A DNA stretch of 64,000 bases from assembly GCF_028009165.1 (NCBI RefSeq), contig NC_079241.1, forward strand, positions 2,604,001-2,668,000, in the 5' to 3' direction. Shown in pieces: positions 12,213 to 29,505 of the stretch. The translations under genes were made by a program, and so were the position numbers. Positions within the stretch are counted from its first letter, which is position 1, and each line of letters starts with the position of its first letter. The notes under the pieces are model-generated. The model made no database searches, was not told the origin of the DNA, and was given only the letters and a program-made list of their open reading frames with translations. The stretch comes from Akanthomyces muscarius (taxonomy: Eukaryota; Ascomycota; Sordariomycetes; Hypocreales; Cordycipitaceae).

Positions 12213-14331
12213 ATGGAGGCAGCGTCTGCGCGCGCGGCGGCCCGCGACCGCTGGGGCGAGTACGGCGGCCGGACGCCGTCGCAGCTGGAGCGCTACATCC
12301 ACTCGGCATGCAGCCCGGACAATTACGAGCCCAACTTAGCGCTCAACCTCGAGATCTCGGATCTGGTCAACCAGAAGAAGGGATCGGCGCCGCGCGAGGC
12401 CGCCACGGCCATCGTCAACTTTATCAACCACCGCAACCCTAATGTGGCCCTGCTCGCGCTCAGCCTGCTTGACATCTGCGTGAAGAATTGCGGCTACCCA
12501 TTTCACTTACAGATCAGCACCAAGGAGTTTCTCAATGAGCTCGTCCGCCGTTTCCCCGAGCGGCCTCCCATCCGCGCCACGCGCGTGCAGGCCAAGATTC
12601 TCGAGGCTATTGAAGAGTGGCGCATGACAATTTGCGAAACGAGCCGGTACAAGGACGACTTAGGCTTCATTCGGGACATGCACCGCCTACTGAGCTACAA
12701 GGGGTACATGTTTCCCGAGATTCGGCGCGAGGATGCGGCTGTGCTGAATCCAAGTGATGTACGTTGCAATATTGCTATTGTTTCTTCTCCTTTCCGAAGC
12801 CTAACCATCAATGCAGAACCTTAAATCTGCCGAAGAAATGGAAGAAGAAGAGCGCGAGGCTCAGTCCGCCAAGCTCCAGGAGCTCATCCGACGAGGCACA
12901 CCCACCGACCTGCAAGAAGCCAACCGCCTTATGAAGGTCATGGCCGGGTACGATACGCGATCTAAGACTGACTACCGCGCCAAGGCGGCCGAGGACGTGG
13001 GCAAGATCCAGGCCAAGGCGCGCCTGCTTGAGGAGCGCCTCGAGGCGTTCCGGCCTGGCGACAAGATGACGGACGGCGACGTGTTCAGCGAGCTGGCGTC
13101 GGCGCTGCAGAGCGCGCAGCCCAAGATTCAAAAGATGTGCGAGGAAGAGTCGGACGATCACGAGGCCGTTGCCAAGCTCTTTGACATCAACGACAGCATC
13201 CACCGCACCGTCGAGCGCTACAAGCTCATGAAGAAGGGCGACATGGAAGGTGCCGCCAAGGTAGCCGCCGGCGGCCCGACACCCTCGCAGACGGCGACGG
13301 TGGGTAGTTCATCGGGTGGCGGTGCGGCGGCCGAGCTCTCGTTGATAGACTTTGACGCCGACGCGGCTGAGGCCAACGGCAGTTCGTCGCAGGCTGGCGG
13401 CACACAAGGCGTTGAGAACGACCTCCTCGGCCTGGATATTGGTGGCGATGCAGGCAACTTTGGACAGGGTGGCAGCATTGCGCTCGGATTCGGTGCCAAC
13501 CAAAGTACGTGCACCAACGTCAAACGAAAATGATAAAGACTAACAACACGCAGATATCCCTGGCCCTGCGCTGCTGTCTTCGTTAACAGACAACAGCAAC
13601 GCCAGTAACAACAATAGCAGTAACATTGCCGCGTCGGGGAGCAGCAGCAACCTCAGCAACCAATTCATGTCGTTTGCCTCGCCATCTGCATCGCAATCGA
13701 CGACGCCAAAGCCTGGCGCGGCCGCTGTCGCTGCTCCTCCTCCTCCTCCAGTTTCCGATCCGTTTGCCGCCTTTATGTCGCAGCCCAAAAACACCAGTGC
13801 TGGCAAGCAGCCCGCCGAAGACGACGAGTGGAACTTTTCCTCTGCGCTCCCTGAATCGTCGACACAGCAGCAGCAGCAATTCCCGAGAGAGCATCGGGCC
13901 ACAATCACCGACGGCAGCATCCGCGCCGAATACCTGGCCAACCGCACCACGGCGTCGTCGCCTGCCATTGACATGCTATTTTCGTTTTCAAATAATACCG
14001 CACAACCCATTTCCGAGCTCCATTTCCAGCTCGCCGTGACAAAGGTAGGTTTCCAAAGCAAGGAATAGTTCGAAAGCGAGGGGAAAGAAGAAGCTAACGA
14101 GGAACCCAACAGGGCTACGAACTCAAACTCAAGCCCCAGACAGGCCGCGACCTGGCGCCCAAGCAAAGCAAGGGCGTCACGCAGCAAGTTGCCATCCACC
14201 ACGCCCCTGGAAGCAACGGCAGCACACCGTCAAAAGTGTCATCGGCTAAGCTGCGCTGGCGAGCCGCGTACAAAGTTGGAGGAGAGAAAAAAGCTGAAAC
14301 GGGCGAGATTGCTGAATTTAGCATTGCCTAA
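12213..14331 (+). CDS. gga: GGA clathrin adaptor (VHS-GAT-GAE)
   Basis: GGA proteins are ARF-dependent monomeric adaptors that sort cargo from the trans-Golgi to endosomes. I read exons 12213-12758, 12817-13504, 13554-14044 and 14113-14331 (647 residues); all three introns have GT-AG ends and join in phase. A VHS domain covers about residues 18-160 (SQLERYIHSACSPDNYEPN, LALLALSLLDICVKNCGYPF). A GAT domain follows at about 185-320 (RTKSDYRAK-like ARF-binding region, here RSKTDYRAKAAEDVG). The hinge is Ser/Asn/Ala/Pro-rich with acidic patches such as LIDFDAD. The C-terminal gamma-adaptin ear starts near residue 540 (ISELHFQLAVTK) and ends with GEIAEFSIA. The ATG at 12213 sits directly before the VHS domain. 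Confidence 0.93.
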
Positions 14332-15067: not shown

Positions 15068-16848
15068 TTAGACGCCGAGCTGAATGGGTGCCGGGCTCGG
15101 CACAACGTAATTGCTCGTCGGCGTCTTGGGCACCTGGGCCATGGATTCGCGCTCCGCCTTTTCCTTTTCGCGCAGCAGTCTCTCGGCCTTTGTGATGCGC
15201 GGCTTGCGAACGATGCCGCCGCGGGATCCGGGGCCGCCGCCGCGACCGGTGCCAGCGCCGCGCGTCGAGCCTCCGCGTCCACCACGACTGCCGCGACCGC
15301 CGCGACCGCGTCGGACAGGACCTTCAGTGCTGTGTCGAAAGTTAGCATGGACTCGTGCAAGATGATTGACAGGTAAAAGACATACCCGGCTGGAGGCTTT
15401 TCGACCTCGGGAACCAGCGGCCCAGAGTAGACGAAGAAGCCGTCACGGCTGGCGGCCGCCTGTGCCTCCCAGAGCATCTCCGAATCGTCGACAAAATCGT
15501 CTTCGACGTCGTATTGGTCCTCCTTGAAATTGCGCTTCTTCTTGGTGGGCTTCGGCTGGTTGTCAGTGCCGCTGGCGCCAGCGACTTCGGGGTTGCTACC
15601 CTCGCCGTCAGACAGGTCCACGGACATTTCGTCGCCAGATTCTCTTCCCGACTCGATTCGTTCGAGGTTCGCCGCCGCCGCCGCAATGCGCGCTTTGCGG
15701 TCTCGGTTAGCCGCCAGACGCGGATGCAGGGCATCCCAACCGTATCGGTCCTCTGCGAGTCGCAGGAAGTTTACGTATTTATTCGTCTCGCCGCTGGATA
15801 TGGGGATGCTCAGAACAATCGTAGGCACGTCGGCCTCCTCGCCGGGCTTAGCTTTGCCAAAATCGAGGATGGAGCGGCCATCGCCCTCGGTTCCAAAGTC
15901 GTCGAGATCTGTTCTGGGAGTCGATACGCCGGTGTGCTTGGGGGACACTTTTCTAATAGGACCATTGGCAATGGTTGTGAAGTTCGAAGGGTTAATGACA
16001 GGTCGCGGCACATCGAGTGCCTCTGACTTTTCGGGCGCCGGGCGAGCAGCAAATGGCCGCGGCGGTTGATTCGAGGGCGAAGCCGGCAGAGGTCTCTCGT
16101 CTGGAAGGCGGGACGCGGGATAGCCATTGCGCGAGTTGGAGGGCGACATGTTGGGCGCGGCCGGCTCTAGCAGACTAGCGATGGAAGGAGACTTGTTGGC
16201 GTGGGTAGGCGGTCTGGGAGAGCCGGCGGCGGGCGAATACGCATTATACGGGGGCGCATCGCGCGCAGATCCCGAGATGCCTCGGATCGGGTCGTAGCTC
16301 TGGCCGCTCGTGCGGACAGGAATAGATGCTGCTGGCGGGGGGTCATCGTTGAGAATGCCCTGCAGATAGCCTTCGCGCTTGGGCATCTTGGGCGACGAGC
16401 GAGCTTGCGTGGGAGATGTTTGCAGGAAGCTGTGGGAAGTGGAGTTTGGCGAGGCGCCTGCGTGACCGGGGGTTCGTGAGACGTCGGAGTCGTCCTGCTC
16501 CGTGTCGGTGAGGATAGCCTTGCGCTTGCGCTGAATGGGGGGCGCATCAGGATCGCGCGGTTTCCTAGGCCGCCGCGTCTTGGTCTCGGCATCCGTACTA
16601 GGCTTAACAATGGTGCCGGGCTTGCGGCCGGGCTTCTTGCGCGGAACGCCAGCAGCCGTGAGCTGCACCCACTTGCCCTCAACCAAACCATACTTTTTCT
16701 CTTGGAGCTTGCCGCCTATCATGACGCTCGTAGGCGGCGGCGGAGGCGGCGGCGATTCATTGGCGGGTTTGGAGCCAGGAGGCTGGTATTGTTGGAATGT
16801 GTTTTGCTGTGTACGACGCTGGTCGTTACTAACGACAATTTCGTCCAT
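15068..16848 (-). CDS. hpc2: HPC2-like HIR histone chaperone complex subunit
   Basis: Hpc2, the ubinuclein family, is a subunit of the HIR complex, which deposits H3-H4 outside replication and represses histone genes. I read exons 16848-15386 and 15329-15068 (574 residues). The 56-base intron starts GTATGT and ends ACAG. The N-terminal 300 residues are Pro/Ser-rich with an AT-hook-like KKPGRKPG and a nuclear-signal-like QRKRK. The diagnostic Hpc2-related domain is near residues 440-490: KKRNFKEDQYDVEDDFVDD, then SEMLWEAQAAASRDGFFVYSG. The second exon is Gly/Arg-rich (RGG repeats), then a short charged helix (KPRITKAERLLREKEKAE) and a Pro-rich end. If the intron were read through, the frame would continue into a tail with different composition. 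Start ATG 16846-16848. Confidence 0.9.
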
Positions 16849-20188: not shown

Positions 20189-20195
20189 AAAAAAA
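20189..20195 (-). terminator. Pol III terminator of tRNA-Ser copy 1
   Basis: Seven T on the minus strand, starting 9 bases after the discriminator base of the tRNA. This is the normal RNA polymerase III stop. Confidence 0.8.
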
Positions 20196-20204
20196 GAACT
20201 CTTT

Positions 20205-20338
20205 CGACAAGAGCAGGATTTGAACCTACGCGGGCGAACCCATGTGATTTCTAGTCACACTCCTTCTATAGATGGATTAGTAAGGCTCACAGATGGTGGA
20301 GCAAGATCAGTTACTTACAACCACTCGGACACCTTGTC
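20205..20338 (-). tRNA. tRNA-Ser(AGA), copy 1, with GT-AG insert in D-loop
   Basis: On the minus strand the acceptor stem GACAAGG pairs with TCTTGTC (one G-T pair), discriminator G. The D arm is TCC/GGA, the anticodon arm TGTGA-CTAGAAA-TCACA with anticodon AGA, the long variable arm GGG-TTCG-CCC and the T arm GTAGG-TTCAAAT-CCTGC. With 20266-20318 removed, the tRNA is 81 bases and canonical for class II tRNA-Ser. The A box (TGTCCGAGTGG) is intact before the insert and the B box (GGTTCAAATCC) after it. The gene would decode UCU and, with inosine, UCC. Standard tRNA finders allow introns only near the anticodon and may miss or misfold it. Confidence 0.88.
20266..20318 (-). other. Spliceosomal-type insert in tRNA-Ser copy 1
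   Basis: A 53-base insert between GGTT and AAGGA of the D-loop. It starts GTAAGTAACT, has ACTAATCC as a branch-site match about 11 bases before the end, and ends CTATAG. These are the same signals seen in the protein-gene introns of this window. Splicing has not been shown. Confidence 0.75.
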
Positions 20339-24369: not shown

Positions 24370-26447
24370 CTAGGCATCAGCGCCCAGTCCCTGAAGCTCC
24401 TTAAGCACAGCGGACTTGGTGTTGATCTTCTTCATCTGCGTGTCCTCGAGCTTCTCGCCACCAGCCAAGCGCATCTCCAAATCCTCAATGGCGCGGACCT
24501 TCTTCTGCAGACTGCGGATCTTCTTAGCATGAGGGTTAGCATCGGCGGCGGCAGCATCCTGAGCGGGAGCCTGCTGAGCGACGTTGCCACCGTTGCGCTG
24601 TCCCTGGTGGGTGTTGCTGCGGCTTCGGCTATCGCCATTGTTTCTGGAGCGGCTGCGGAAGTGGCGGTCGTTGCCGCTAGCACCGCCACGTCTCTCAGGG
24701 CTGCGTCCATCTTGGCCTTGCTGAGGAGGGGCAAGACTAGCGCCTCCGTTCGGCTCCGCCTCGAGTTTGCCATCGCCCTGGTTGTTGTTTCTCTTGCTTC
24801 TCTTCTTCTTGCTCTTCTTGGATGGGTCATTTTCAGCTGGTTCAGCGCCAGGGACCCCGCGCGGAGGAGCAGGGCCAGACTCGGCGAGCTCGGCGCCTGG
24901 AACAGCGCGACGGGCACGGCCAAAGCCGTTGGGCCCAACATTTTGAGTACCGTTGCTCACAACGTGAGCAGCACCGCCTTCGTCCTCACGCTTGAAATGC
25001 AAGGGAGTAGCCAGACCACGAGCACCAGGAGGGCGGTAAGCACCGGCGGGCTTGCTTGGGGTCTTGACGGTGCCGAGGTAAGTGGCGGCTGAAGCATGGG
25101 GAGAAGGCACAGTAGTGAGAGGGTCGCCCGGTGCGGCAGCCTCAGGTGCCTGCGGCCTCCATACAACATTGTATAATTCAACCATATCTTCGTTGTACAT
25201 CAGGCTGCCAGCAACGTGCCAAAGCTTGACACCATTGTCGACACGGAGTCGCGGTGACGTCGTGGCAGTCATGATGTATCGACTGTCAGGGCTCCACTCG
25301 CACACGCTGGGATTGCCACTCTCAATGGTGCACACCTTTCGGTAGTCCTTTTCGAGGTCGTAGACGTCGATCTGACCGGCAAGGTTTCCAAAGCCGGCCA
25401 AAAGGACGAAACGGCCTGTGGGAGAAAAGATAATGGTGTTGCGAGGGCTCAGAGAGAACGAGTGGGTTGCGACAGCTCGGTCGTTGAAGATGGTGGCCTT
25501 GGCAGGCATGTATCCGTAGACGACACCAAATTCACGTGAGTTGGGCGACCAGGAGACATCGTGGATGGGGCCCTCCTTATCCAGCGAGACGCGAGCATCA
25601 AACGAGCCGTTGGTGCTCAAAAGATACAGAGTCGTCTCGCCGTAGTAGCTCTTTCCGGAGCGGTCGACGTCAGTCTGCGCCAGGACGAGGATGCTTGAGC
25701 CACGCTTGTTCCACTTCAGCTGGACCTTGTCGCCCTTGAAAAAGGTCTTTTGAGAGATGGGGGCGTTGAACTGGGGGACATTGAAAACGCGAACGGAAGC
25801 TGGTTGACCCTGTACGTTTGTTAGCCTCGAGACAGATACTCAAATCCAGGCAGGCTTACCTTGCGCTCTGGGACAAAGACTGCGACAGCGTGGTTCTTGC
25901 TTCCGGGAGCGAGAGCGAAGTTGGCGGCCCCCTCGACGCGAAGTTTGTTCCAGACAGTGATGAGATCGTGCGACTCGTAGAATTGCACCTCATTGGTGAC
26001 GAGACGGGCGCAGTACTTTTCGTCGGCAGTGTACTGGAGATTCCAGCTTCCCTGCTGCTTCTGGACGAAGCGACCAATGGGTTGCTTATCGGCGGCAGCA
26101 ACACCGTCCTCAACTGTGCGCCAAATCTTCAAGTTCTTGGTGGCGTCGCCATTCTCATCCTTGGCAGGGCGCTCCCACGTAATGAGAAACGTGCCCTGGG
26201 GCGAGAAGCCCAGTTCGTAGACGTTGAGAATGGGCAGAGTGAGGATGCCGGCGCCAGTAGAGGCGTCAATGACGTTGACAGCCTCAGGTGAAGCCCAGCC
26301 AAAGTAGCGGCCACATGGTGAGTAGGCACAGCAGCGAAGGTTGCCCTCGGGTTTGGTGAAGCCAGAGAGGGGTTCGTACGCTGGGGCGGCGTCAAAGACA
26401 CCGATGTGCTTGAGGGTCCGGTAGGCAAACTGCAATGAAGAAGCCAT
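24370..26447 (-). CDS. Translation initiation factor eIF2A
   Basis: eIF2A is a WD40-like beta-propeller protein that can deliver initiator tRNA independently of eIF2. I read exons 26447-25860 and 25809-24370 (675 residues) with a 50-base GT-AG intron whose GGCTAAC lies just before ACAG. The propeller spans roughly residues 1-430 (YSPCGRYFGWASPEAVNVID, SRNVEFGVVYGYMPAKATIF-like blade here NSREFGVVYGYMPAKATIF, GPIHDVSWSPNSREF). A basic, Gln/Asn/Gly-rich linker follows, with SKKSKKKRSKRNNN. The C-terminal helix (KKIRSLQKKVRAIEDLEMR) is the conserved RNA/ribosome-contact tail. The ATG at 26445-26447 is in the conserved MxSSLQFAYRT context. Confidence 0.95.
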
Positions 26448-29370: not shown

Positions 29371-29505
29371 CGACAAGAGCAGGATTCGAACCTACGCGCG
29401 CGAACGCATGTGATTTCTAGTCACACTCCTTCTGTTTCGAGTGTTAGGGCGCCGCACAAGTTGTGGAGCTAGAGTAATTACTTACAACCACTCGGACACC
29501 TTGTC
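29371..29505 (-). tRNA. tRNA-Ser(AGA), copy 2, with GT-AG insert in D-loop
   Basis: Same layout as copy 1: acceptor GACAAGG/TCTTGTC, anticodon loop CTAGAAA (anticodon AGA), T loop TTCGAAT, discriminator G. With 29432-29485 removed the length is again exactly 81 bases. The variable arm reads GCG-TTCG-CGC where copy 1 has GGG-TTCG-CCC, a compensatory pair change that supports both being functional. The A box and B box (GGTTCGAATCC) are intact. Flanking sequences of the two copies are unrelated, so they are not a recent local duplication. Confidence 0.88.
29432..29485 (-). other. Spliceosomal-type insert in tRNA-Ser copy 2
   Basis: A 54-base insert at exactly the same D-loop position as in copy 1. 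It starts GTAAGTAATT, has CCCTAACAC as branch-site match about 12 bases from the end, and ends AACAG. It shares GTAAGTAA and GCTCCAC with copy 1 but is otherwise diverged, while the tRNA halves are nearly identical. Confidence 0.75.

Follow-up and report, generated by a model that had tools for sequence, protein, structure and literature searches.

Within a 64,000-nt stretch of the genome of the fungus Akanthomyces muscarius (contig NC_079241.1, positions 2,604,001 to 2,668,000; hereafter the window, position 1 being its first letter), a tRNA-Ser(AGA) gene is interrupted in its D-loop by a 53-nt insert with the signals of an mRNA intron. This single gene is a member of a genome-wide class: 17 of 98 tRNA genes, in 11 isoacceptor classes for 8 amino acids, carry a GT-AG intron away from position 37/38. 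The most probable explanation, to which we assign a probability of roughly 0.88 on the strength of the DNA sequence, is that the inserts are U2-type spliceosomal introns in tRNA transcripts of RNA polymerase III (Pol III), and that the spliceosome would excise them before ordinary tRNA maturation. An initial annotation of the window had proposed spliceosomal processing for the one gene, and the proposal gains support from our DNA-level tests, namely the interruption of 3/3 copies, compensatory changes, kept splice signals, the 17-gene class, empty sites and the lack of a standard bulge-helix-bulge; from these we infer the excision itself. The features of the gene, here called copy 1, and of the two other Ser(AGA) copies are as follows.

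20205-20338, minus strand: tRNA-Ser(AGA) copy 1, whole gene (read from the sequence).
20319..20338, minus strand: copy 1 5' exon, with the acceptor 5' strand and the D-arm as far as GGTT (sequence, ARAGORN).
20266..20318, minus strand: copy 1 D-loop intron, 53 nt, GT-AG, GTAAGT ... CTATAG (ARAGORN on the spliced form).
20276..20280, minus strand: copy 1 branch-site motif CTAAT; the branch A is base 20277, 11 nt from the 3' end of the intron.
20205..20265, minus strand: copy 1 3' exon (sequence, ARAGORN, alignment of the copies).
20321..20331, minus strand: Pol III A-box-like segment TGTCCGAGTGG of copy 1, 5' of the intron (sequence reading).
20216..20226, minus strand: Pol III B box GGTTCAAATCC of copy 1, 3' of the intron (B-box pattern search).
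20189..20195, minus strand: run of seven T, by sequence a Pol III terminator for copy 1 (B-box/T-run search).
29371..29505, minus strand: tRNA-Ser(AGA) copy 2 (genome search, ARAGORN on the spliced form).
29432..29485, minus strand: copy 2 intron, 54 nt, at the same D-loop site, GTAAGT ... CTAAC ... CAG.
C1:319727-319860: tRNA-Ser(AGA) copy 3, outside the window, with a 53-nt intron.

The first exon of copy 1 ends in CCGAGTGGTT, directly after which the D-loop is broken. The 53 bases of the insert run from GTAAGT to TTACTAATCCATCTATAG, and the second exon supplies the remaining D-arm, the anticodon arm with AGA, the variable arm, the T-arm, the acceptor 3' strand and a G discriminator. ARAGORN called no tRNA in the window, nor in unspliced copy 1, and Rfam at its gathering scores found no match in the whole window. 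With the 53 bases taken out, the ARAGORN call is tRNA-Ser(aga), and the spliced form has the intact cloverleaf, long variable arm and discriminator G of a functional nuclear tRNA-Ser(AGA). The initial annotation had described this D-loop insert, its GTAAGT start, a CTAAT branch match about 11 bases from a TAG end, and a Pol III A box, B box and T7 terminator; the sequence agrees on each point, the end reading CTATAG, the branch A lying at 11 nt and the A box being represented by an A-box-like segment. For this and the other tRNA genes reported here, A-box-like and B-box segments were assigned by their consensus sequences. An insert of this kind is rare by chance, as only 3 of 767,280 stretches in the window (51-56 nt, both strands) fit the pattern of a GTDNG[TC] donor, a terminal AG and a YTAAY whose A precedes the end by 10-12 nt. 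These are the inserts of copy 1 and copy 2 (29432-29485) and the stretch 15330-15385, which is likely an mRNA intron that joins two open frames.

The D-loop insert is present in all three Ser(AGA) genes found in the genome (a 36.2-Mb assembly of 12 contigs; copy counts assume that no tRNA genes are absent from it). Intact Ser(AGA) genes elsewhere, which the initial annotation had named as a sign of dead copies, were sought with two patterns and with BLAST, and none was found. The first pattern, anticodon loop plus B box, matched no uninterrupted gene in the genome, only the three interrupted genes and C4:749710, which was rejected as an additional Ser(AGA) as it sits within a tRNA-Tyr intron. 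The second, D-arm plus B box at intron-less spacing, also revealed no uninterrupted gene in the genome, and a genome BLAST with the spliced 81-mer recovered the same three genes through their 3' exons, the 5' exon separately for two of them, and no intact copy. A further genome search for GTAAGT plus GGTTCRANTCC yielded just the three Ser(AGA) genes (control 0), with a pattern too strict to capture other donors or other B boxes, such as those of Ser(TGA) and Met, and the pattern CCGAGYGGNYNAAGG matched 8 places in the genome, one of which ARAGORN identifies as tRNA-Leu. In eukaryotes UCU and UCC are read solely by the tRNA with anticodon AGA (as IGA). The fact that AGA alone serves these codons means that the Ser(AGA) genes must yield tRNA, if the assembly is complete.

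The interruptions extend across the isoacceptors below, and serine stands out in that all four of its isoacceptors are affected, with 8/8 of the genes found interrupted.

Ser(AGA): 3/3 interrupted, D-loop.
Ser(TGA): 1/1 interrupted, D-loop, at the Ser(AGA) site.
Ser(CGA): 1/1 interrupted, D-loop, at the Ser(AGA) site.
Ser(GCT): 3/3 interrupted, between anticodon bases 35 and 36.
Thr(TGT): interrupted, 35/36, the same site as Ser(GCT).
Lys(TTT): interrupted, 33/34.
Arg(TCT): 1/1 interrupted, 31/32.
Trp(CCA): 2/2 interrupted, variable loop.
Elongator Met: interrupted, D-loop.
Leu(AAG): 2/4 interrupted, D-loop.
Pro(AGG): 1/3 interrupted, D-loop.

Intron numbering and tRNA identity are our own reading of the spliced forms, with ARAGORN as backing. 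With boundaries that yield the expected mature tRNA, 17/17 introns lie outside the canonical position 37/38; in the Ser genes these boundaries are fixed, no one-base slide being possible, and in Ser(GCT) the GT-AG boundaries restore the anticodon GCT. After removal of the inserts ARAGORN calls a tRNA in 17/17, with the expected identity in 15, the two misses being the second Trp gene, which is given a four-base anticodon, and Met, which is called His. Left unspliced, 6/17 of the genes are not called at all, and only four (three Ser(GCT) and Thr) receive the right identity. A second, ordinary anticodon-loop intron is called by ARAGORN after GT-AG removal in Ser(TGA), Ser(CGA), Leu, Pro and Lys, and is present by our own reading in Trp, Arg and Met. 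BLAST of the assembly found no uninterrupted Trp, Ser(TGA/CGA), Ser(GCT) or Arg(TCT) gene.

Two further observations concern individual members of the class. Part of the interior is common to the D-loop introns of different serine isoacceptors, reading GCTCCACCAT in copies 1 and 3 of Ser(AGA), GCTCCGCCACCAT in Ser(TGA) and GCCCCGCCACCAT in Ser(CGA); serine tRNA genes may have inherited an ancient intron or copied it from one another, or the stretch may have a function. In both tRNA-Trp genes (L073, L074; C3:3658226-3658619), A31 would by our reading face C39 in the anticodon stem (TCAGA / CCTGA), an unusual mismatch present in each copy and possibly pointing to an A-C pair, to editing or to a different endonuclease cut.

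By our reading all 17 introns lie between the A and B boxes, those of Pro and Leu touching the last A-box bases, and a T run of at least 5 follows each gene. This arrangement bears on the possibility that Pol II makes a longer host RNA, which is spliced in the manner of an mRNA and from which the tRNA is then excised, so that the introns would be spliceosomal and the transcript would not be a product of Pol III. Such a route would remove the need to explain an encounter between the spliceosome and a Pol III product. We nevertheless regard it as unlikely, since A-box-like and B-box segments and the downstream T run are kept (features that were partly search criteria), and since the introns are confined to the interval between the boxes, as if internal Pol III promoters constrain them.

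The signals within the introns are highly uniform. Every intron (17/17) opens with GT and closes with AG; the donor is GTRNGT in 15/17, the others being GTAAGC in Leu(AAG) copy 2 and GTTAGT in Thr(TGT); and the branch motif, always YTAAY, is CTAAC in 15/17, CTAAT in one and TTAAC in one, its A always lying 10-12 nt short of the 3' boundary. The acceptor is YAG in 15/17 and AAG in two, and the length is 51-60 nt in 16/17, Pro having 107. At 51-60 nt an intron is below the size of a self-splicing catalytic core, and Rfam gave no match to a group I or II core in the window, which holds two of the copies. As a negative control, the same architecture was sought in the 81 other ARAGORN-called tRNA genes and found in none; an anticodon-loop intron is called in 54 of these, with a GT start in 2 and an AG end in 0.

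In donor, branch site, acceptor and length the tRNA introns fit the consensus of Hypocreales U2-type mRNA introns as represented by Fusarium, for which PMC5677156 gives a donor of A38A38G53/G100T99A74A42G93T66 over 2022 introns, CTRAY at 91% of branch sites and YAG/R at 94% of acceptors. They also resemble three unverified candidate mRNA introns in the window itself (13505-13553, 15330-15385 and 25810-25859), which have CTAAC 10-12 nt from the end and lengths of 49-56 nt. These come from a de novo scan that gave 18 unverified candidates of mixed quality, the others differing in spacing or length, and they make a weak control for the tRNA introns. What sets the tRNA introns apart from the mRNA introns is the host, here a non-coding gene with exons of 16 to ~80 nt.

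The same signals weigh on a second possibility, namely that the inserts are ectopic tRNA introns which the Sen complex and tRNA ligase take out via a bulge-helix-bulge or similar structure, the likeness to GT-AG introns being incidental. Ordinary anticodon-loop introns are plentiful in the genome, and ectopic introns of the D-, anticodon- and T-arm occur in Cyanidioschyzon and in nucleomorphs (PMC4090602, in part). Cyanidioschyzon merolae, nucleomorph and archaeal ectopic introns resemble ours in occupying the D-loop and other unusual positions, several per gene; those of C. merolae and archaea depend on a bulge-helix-bulge, and those of the Guillardia nucleomorph are 3-24 nt long (PMC4090602, in part). 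In contrast, the standard bulge-helix-bulge (3-nt bulges, 4-bp helix) was found at the GT-AG boundaries of 0/17 introns, with at most 2/4 pairs in the central helix, in a test confined to the standard form, relaxed variants such as bulge-helix-loop lying outside it. Folding two unspliced copies and one spliced form added nothing to this test, the spliced form giving the cloverleaf helices only 1.5 standard deviations better than shuffles. Furthermore, bulge-helix-bulge introns need neither GTRNGT nor a branch motif at a fixed distance, yet the 17 genes have these mRNA-intron signals. Canonical 37/38 introns, the usual substrates of the Sen endonuclease and tRNA ligase, are likewise introns in nuclear tRNA genes, and many are present in this fungus, at times within the same gene as a GT-AG intron. 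They lie one base past the anticodon and have no clear local splice-site motif (PMC4090602, in part), whereas the 17 introns lie elsewhere and have GT, a branch motif and AG. Removal of the 17 inserts by the Sen complex is unlikely in our view.

The differences between paralogues suggest genes in use. The Ser(AGA) copies look like working genes because their stem differences are compensatory: among the three spliced copies, G-C becomes C-G at acceptor pair 6-75, variable-arm pair 46-53 is C-G versus G-C, and G-U becomes G-C at acceptor pair 7-74, which amounts to two double compensatory changes and one G-U to G-C. In the spliced alignment 69/69 stem-pair cells are paired, and sliding the partners by 1-3 columns lowers this to 35-55%. 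Identity among the copies is 90-100% in exons, 65-80% in introns and 52-55% in 5' flanks, the flank figure being roughly what unrelated sequences give in such alignments. More generally, in 8/9 paralogue pairs within an isoacceptor group (TGA and CGA pooled) both exons are more similar than the intron. The clearest pair is Trp, where the 3' exons are identical (26/26) and the 5' exons differ just in the ordinary anticodon-loop intron; the intron core has 18/45 identical columns, yet GTACGTA and TCTAACNCCNTAACAG are kept. Two groups also include empty sites. For Leu(AAG), the C10 genes read GAGTATGGTTATGGC and the two C6 genes read GAGTTG, intron, GTTATGGC (two with the intron, two without), and for Pro(AGG), two genes read TCTAGTGGTATG and one reads TCTAGT, intron, GGTATG (one with, two without).

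That the fungus relies on other tRNAs and the interrupted genes are defunct, whether as pseudogenes or through insertion, is hardly credible, for while eukaryotic D- and T-arm insertions are usually read as marks of a pseudogene (PMC4090602, in part) and a 12-contig assembly might miss some genes, no uninterrupted gene was found in it for Ser(AGA), Ser(GCT), Ser(TGA), Ser(CGA), Trp or Arg(TCT), stem changes are compensatory, and exons are more alike than introns in 8/9 pairs.

Several points weigh against spliceosomal introns in Pol III transcripts. The case is built from DNA sequence of one genome. The shuffle control on the three Ser(AGA) copies is weak, 49/500 shuffles reaching the observed value. 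The intron ends are weaker in two cases, Leu copy 2 (GTAAGC/TTAAC/AAG) and Thr (GTTAGT/AAG). Ser(TGA)/Ser(CGA), the ninth paralogue pair, has an intron (46/52) slightly more alike than its 3' exon (60/71), in which the anticodon differs and an ordinary intron lies; the introns of Ser(GCT) copies 2 and 3 are alike at 48/53. Because the introns of these two pairs are nearly alike, the conservation of signals is not independent in every pair. The B box and T run were chosen for in most of the 98 genes, so they are not independent evidence. Splicing of mRNA is normally coupled to capped transcripts of Pol II. The first exons in these tRNA genes measure 16-57 nt, and the recruitment of U1 to an uncapped Pol III transcript is a difficulty for this reading.

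In textbooks the spliceosome has no role in tRNA splicing. mRNA-type introns also occur in U6 small nuclear RNA genes of some fungi besides S. pombe. The precedent is S. pombe, where an mRNA-type intron interrupts the gene of the Pol III RNA U6 (PMC8917221, in part); the difference is that U6 is a component of the spliceosome, whereas here many tRNA genes are interrupted, at several positions. According to the review of tRNA introns PMC4090602, D- and T-arm inserts in eukaryotes are for the most part held to mark pseudogenes, genuine examples being those of nucleomorphs and Cyanidioschyzon, and the string 'spliceosom' is absent from its main text. Noncanonical intron detection in tRNAscan-SE 2.0 is described for archaea (PMC8450103), and passages of PMC3978253, PMC4033280 and PMC3400036 make no mention of such introns. 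Among the matches listed in open-access full texts, judged by title and the start of the abstract, we recognised none that describes spliceosomal introns in tRNA genes; subscription papers and preprints lie outside that search, so priority is not proved. Both ingredients are known, and it is their combination that would break the rule of separate machines for nuclear tRNA and mRNA splicing.

The survey behind these counts is large and incomplete. It drew on B boxes followed by a T run, other B boxes, the Rfam tRNA model and BLAST, and gave 98 distinct tRNA genes (92 called by ARAGORN and 6 uncalled when unspliced). The first B-box survey had 172 matches (control 31), the first 100 of which were listed, and the refined one had 108 (control 23), of which 100 were listed and the other 8 lie beyond C10:691959; places among those listed without the look of a T-arm were left out. 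A second B-box pattern showed no excess (62 matches against 102 in the control), and 5/6 places chosen from it by eye are tRNA genes. The Rfam tRNA model gave 51 matches, from 63 scored of 781 candidates. The ARAGORN table of 95 rows lost three, one being a call in the window with a 1062-nt intron and two being alignment-copy rows. Copy counts come from BLAST for Ser, Trp, Arg(TCT) and Leu(AAG) and from the B-box survey for Pro; for Thr(TGT), Lys(TTT) and elongator Met, further copies were not sought by BLAST.

Other observations from the survey stand apart from the class. Neither tRNA-Asn(GTT) nor tRNA-Gln(TTG) is among the 98 genes of this incomplete collection. At C1:1694800-1695320 (L146, L152) there is a perfect T-arm, a TGAGGGCA end and a T run, resembling the 3' end of the Met gene, with no recognised 5' part within ~490 nt upstream; it is either part of a gene or a tRNA gene that carries a long insert. 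C6:2610900-2611350 (L135) is tRNA-like, with CCTCGAG/CTCGAGG acceptor strands, a good T-arm and ~100 nt of unclear sequence where the anticodon region belongs, and C7:391600-392050 (L137) holds a short tRNA-like fragment (GATAAGG...CCTTATC plus a T-arm) under full tRNA size. In the window, an open reading frame for eIF2B-epsilon has 99% identity to that of Akanthomyces lecanii RCEF 1005, the next named proteins coming from Aphanocladium, Beauveria and Cordyceps at 83-88%; this places the fungus in Cordycipitaceae (Hypocreales), in the order that the initial annotation had suggested. A promoter/terminator scan of bacterial sites gave no match and has no bearing on Pol III. Searches of a bacterial/archaeal contig collection, made only in case of stray fungal DNA, and of a viral one gave no match.

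If the inserts are spliceosomal introns, Pol III would transcribe the interrupted tRNA genes, U1 would bind GUAAGU and U2 the CUAAY branch site, and the spliceosome would cut the intron out as a lariat and join the D-loop halves to give an 81-nt tRNA-Ser(AGA). The same system would serve at least 17 tRNA genes, with the ordinary anticodon-loop introns that several of them also carry left to the tRNA splicing endonuclease, and ordinary tRNA maturation would probably come after the spliceosomal step. It is likely that in this fungal lineage (Cordycipitaceae or wider) spliceosomal introns invaded tRNA genes between the A and B boxes, and that serine, tryptophan and other decoding became dependent on the spliceosome, sometimes together with the endonuclease on the same molecule. 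Translation in the fungus would then depend on the spliceosome in a new way, and the spliceosome would routinely act on short uncapped Pol III transcripts. Ordinary tRNA finders would miss or misname essential tRNA genes in such genomes. Intron gain would be open to study in short genes (70-100 nt) whose structure is known and whose genome also has paralogues with the site empty, and whether the spliceosome can serve a tRNA would become a directly testable question.
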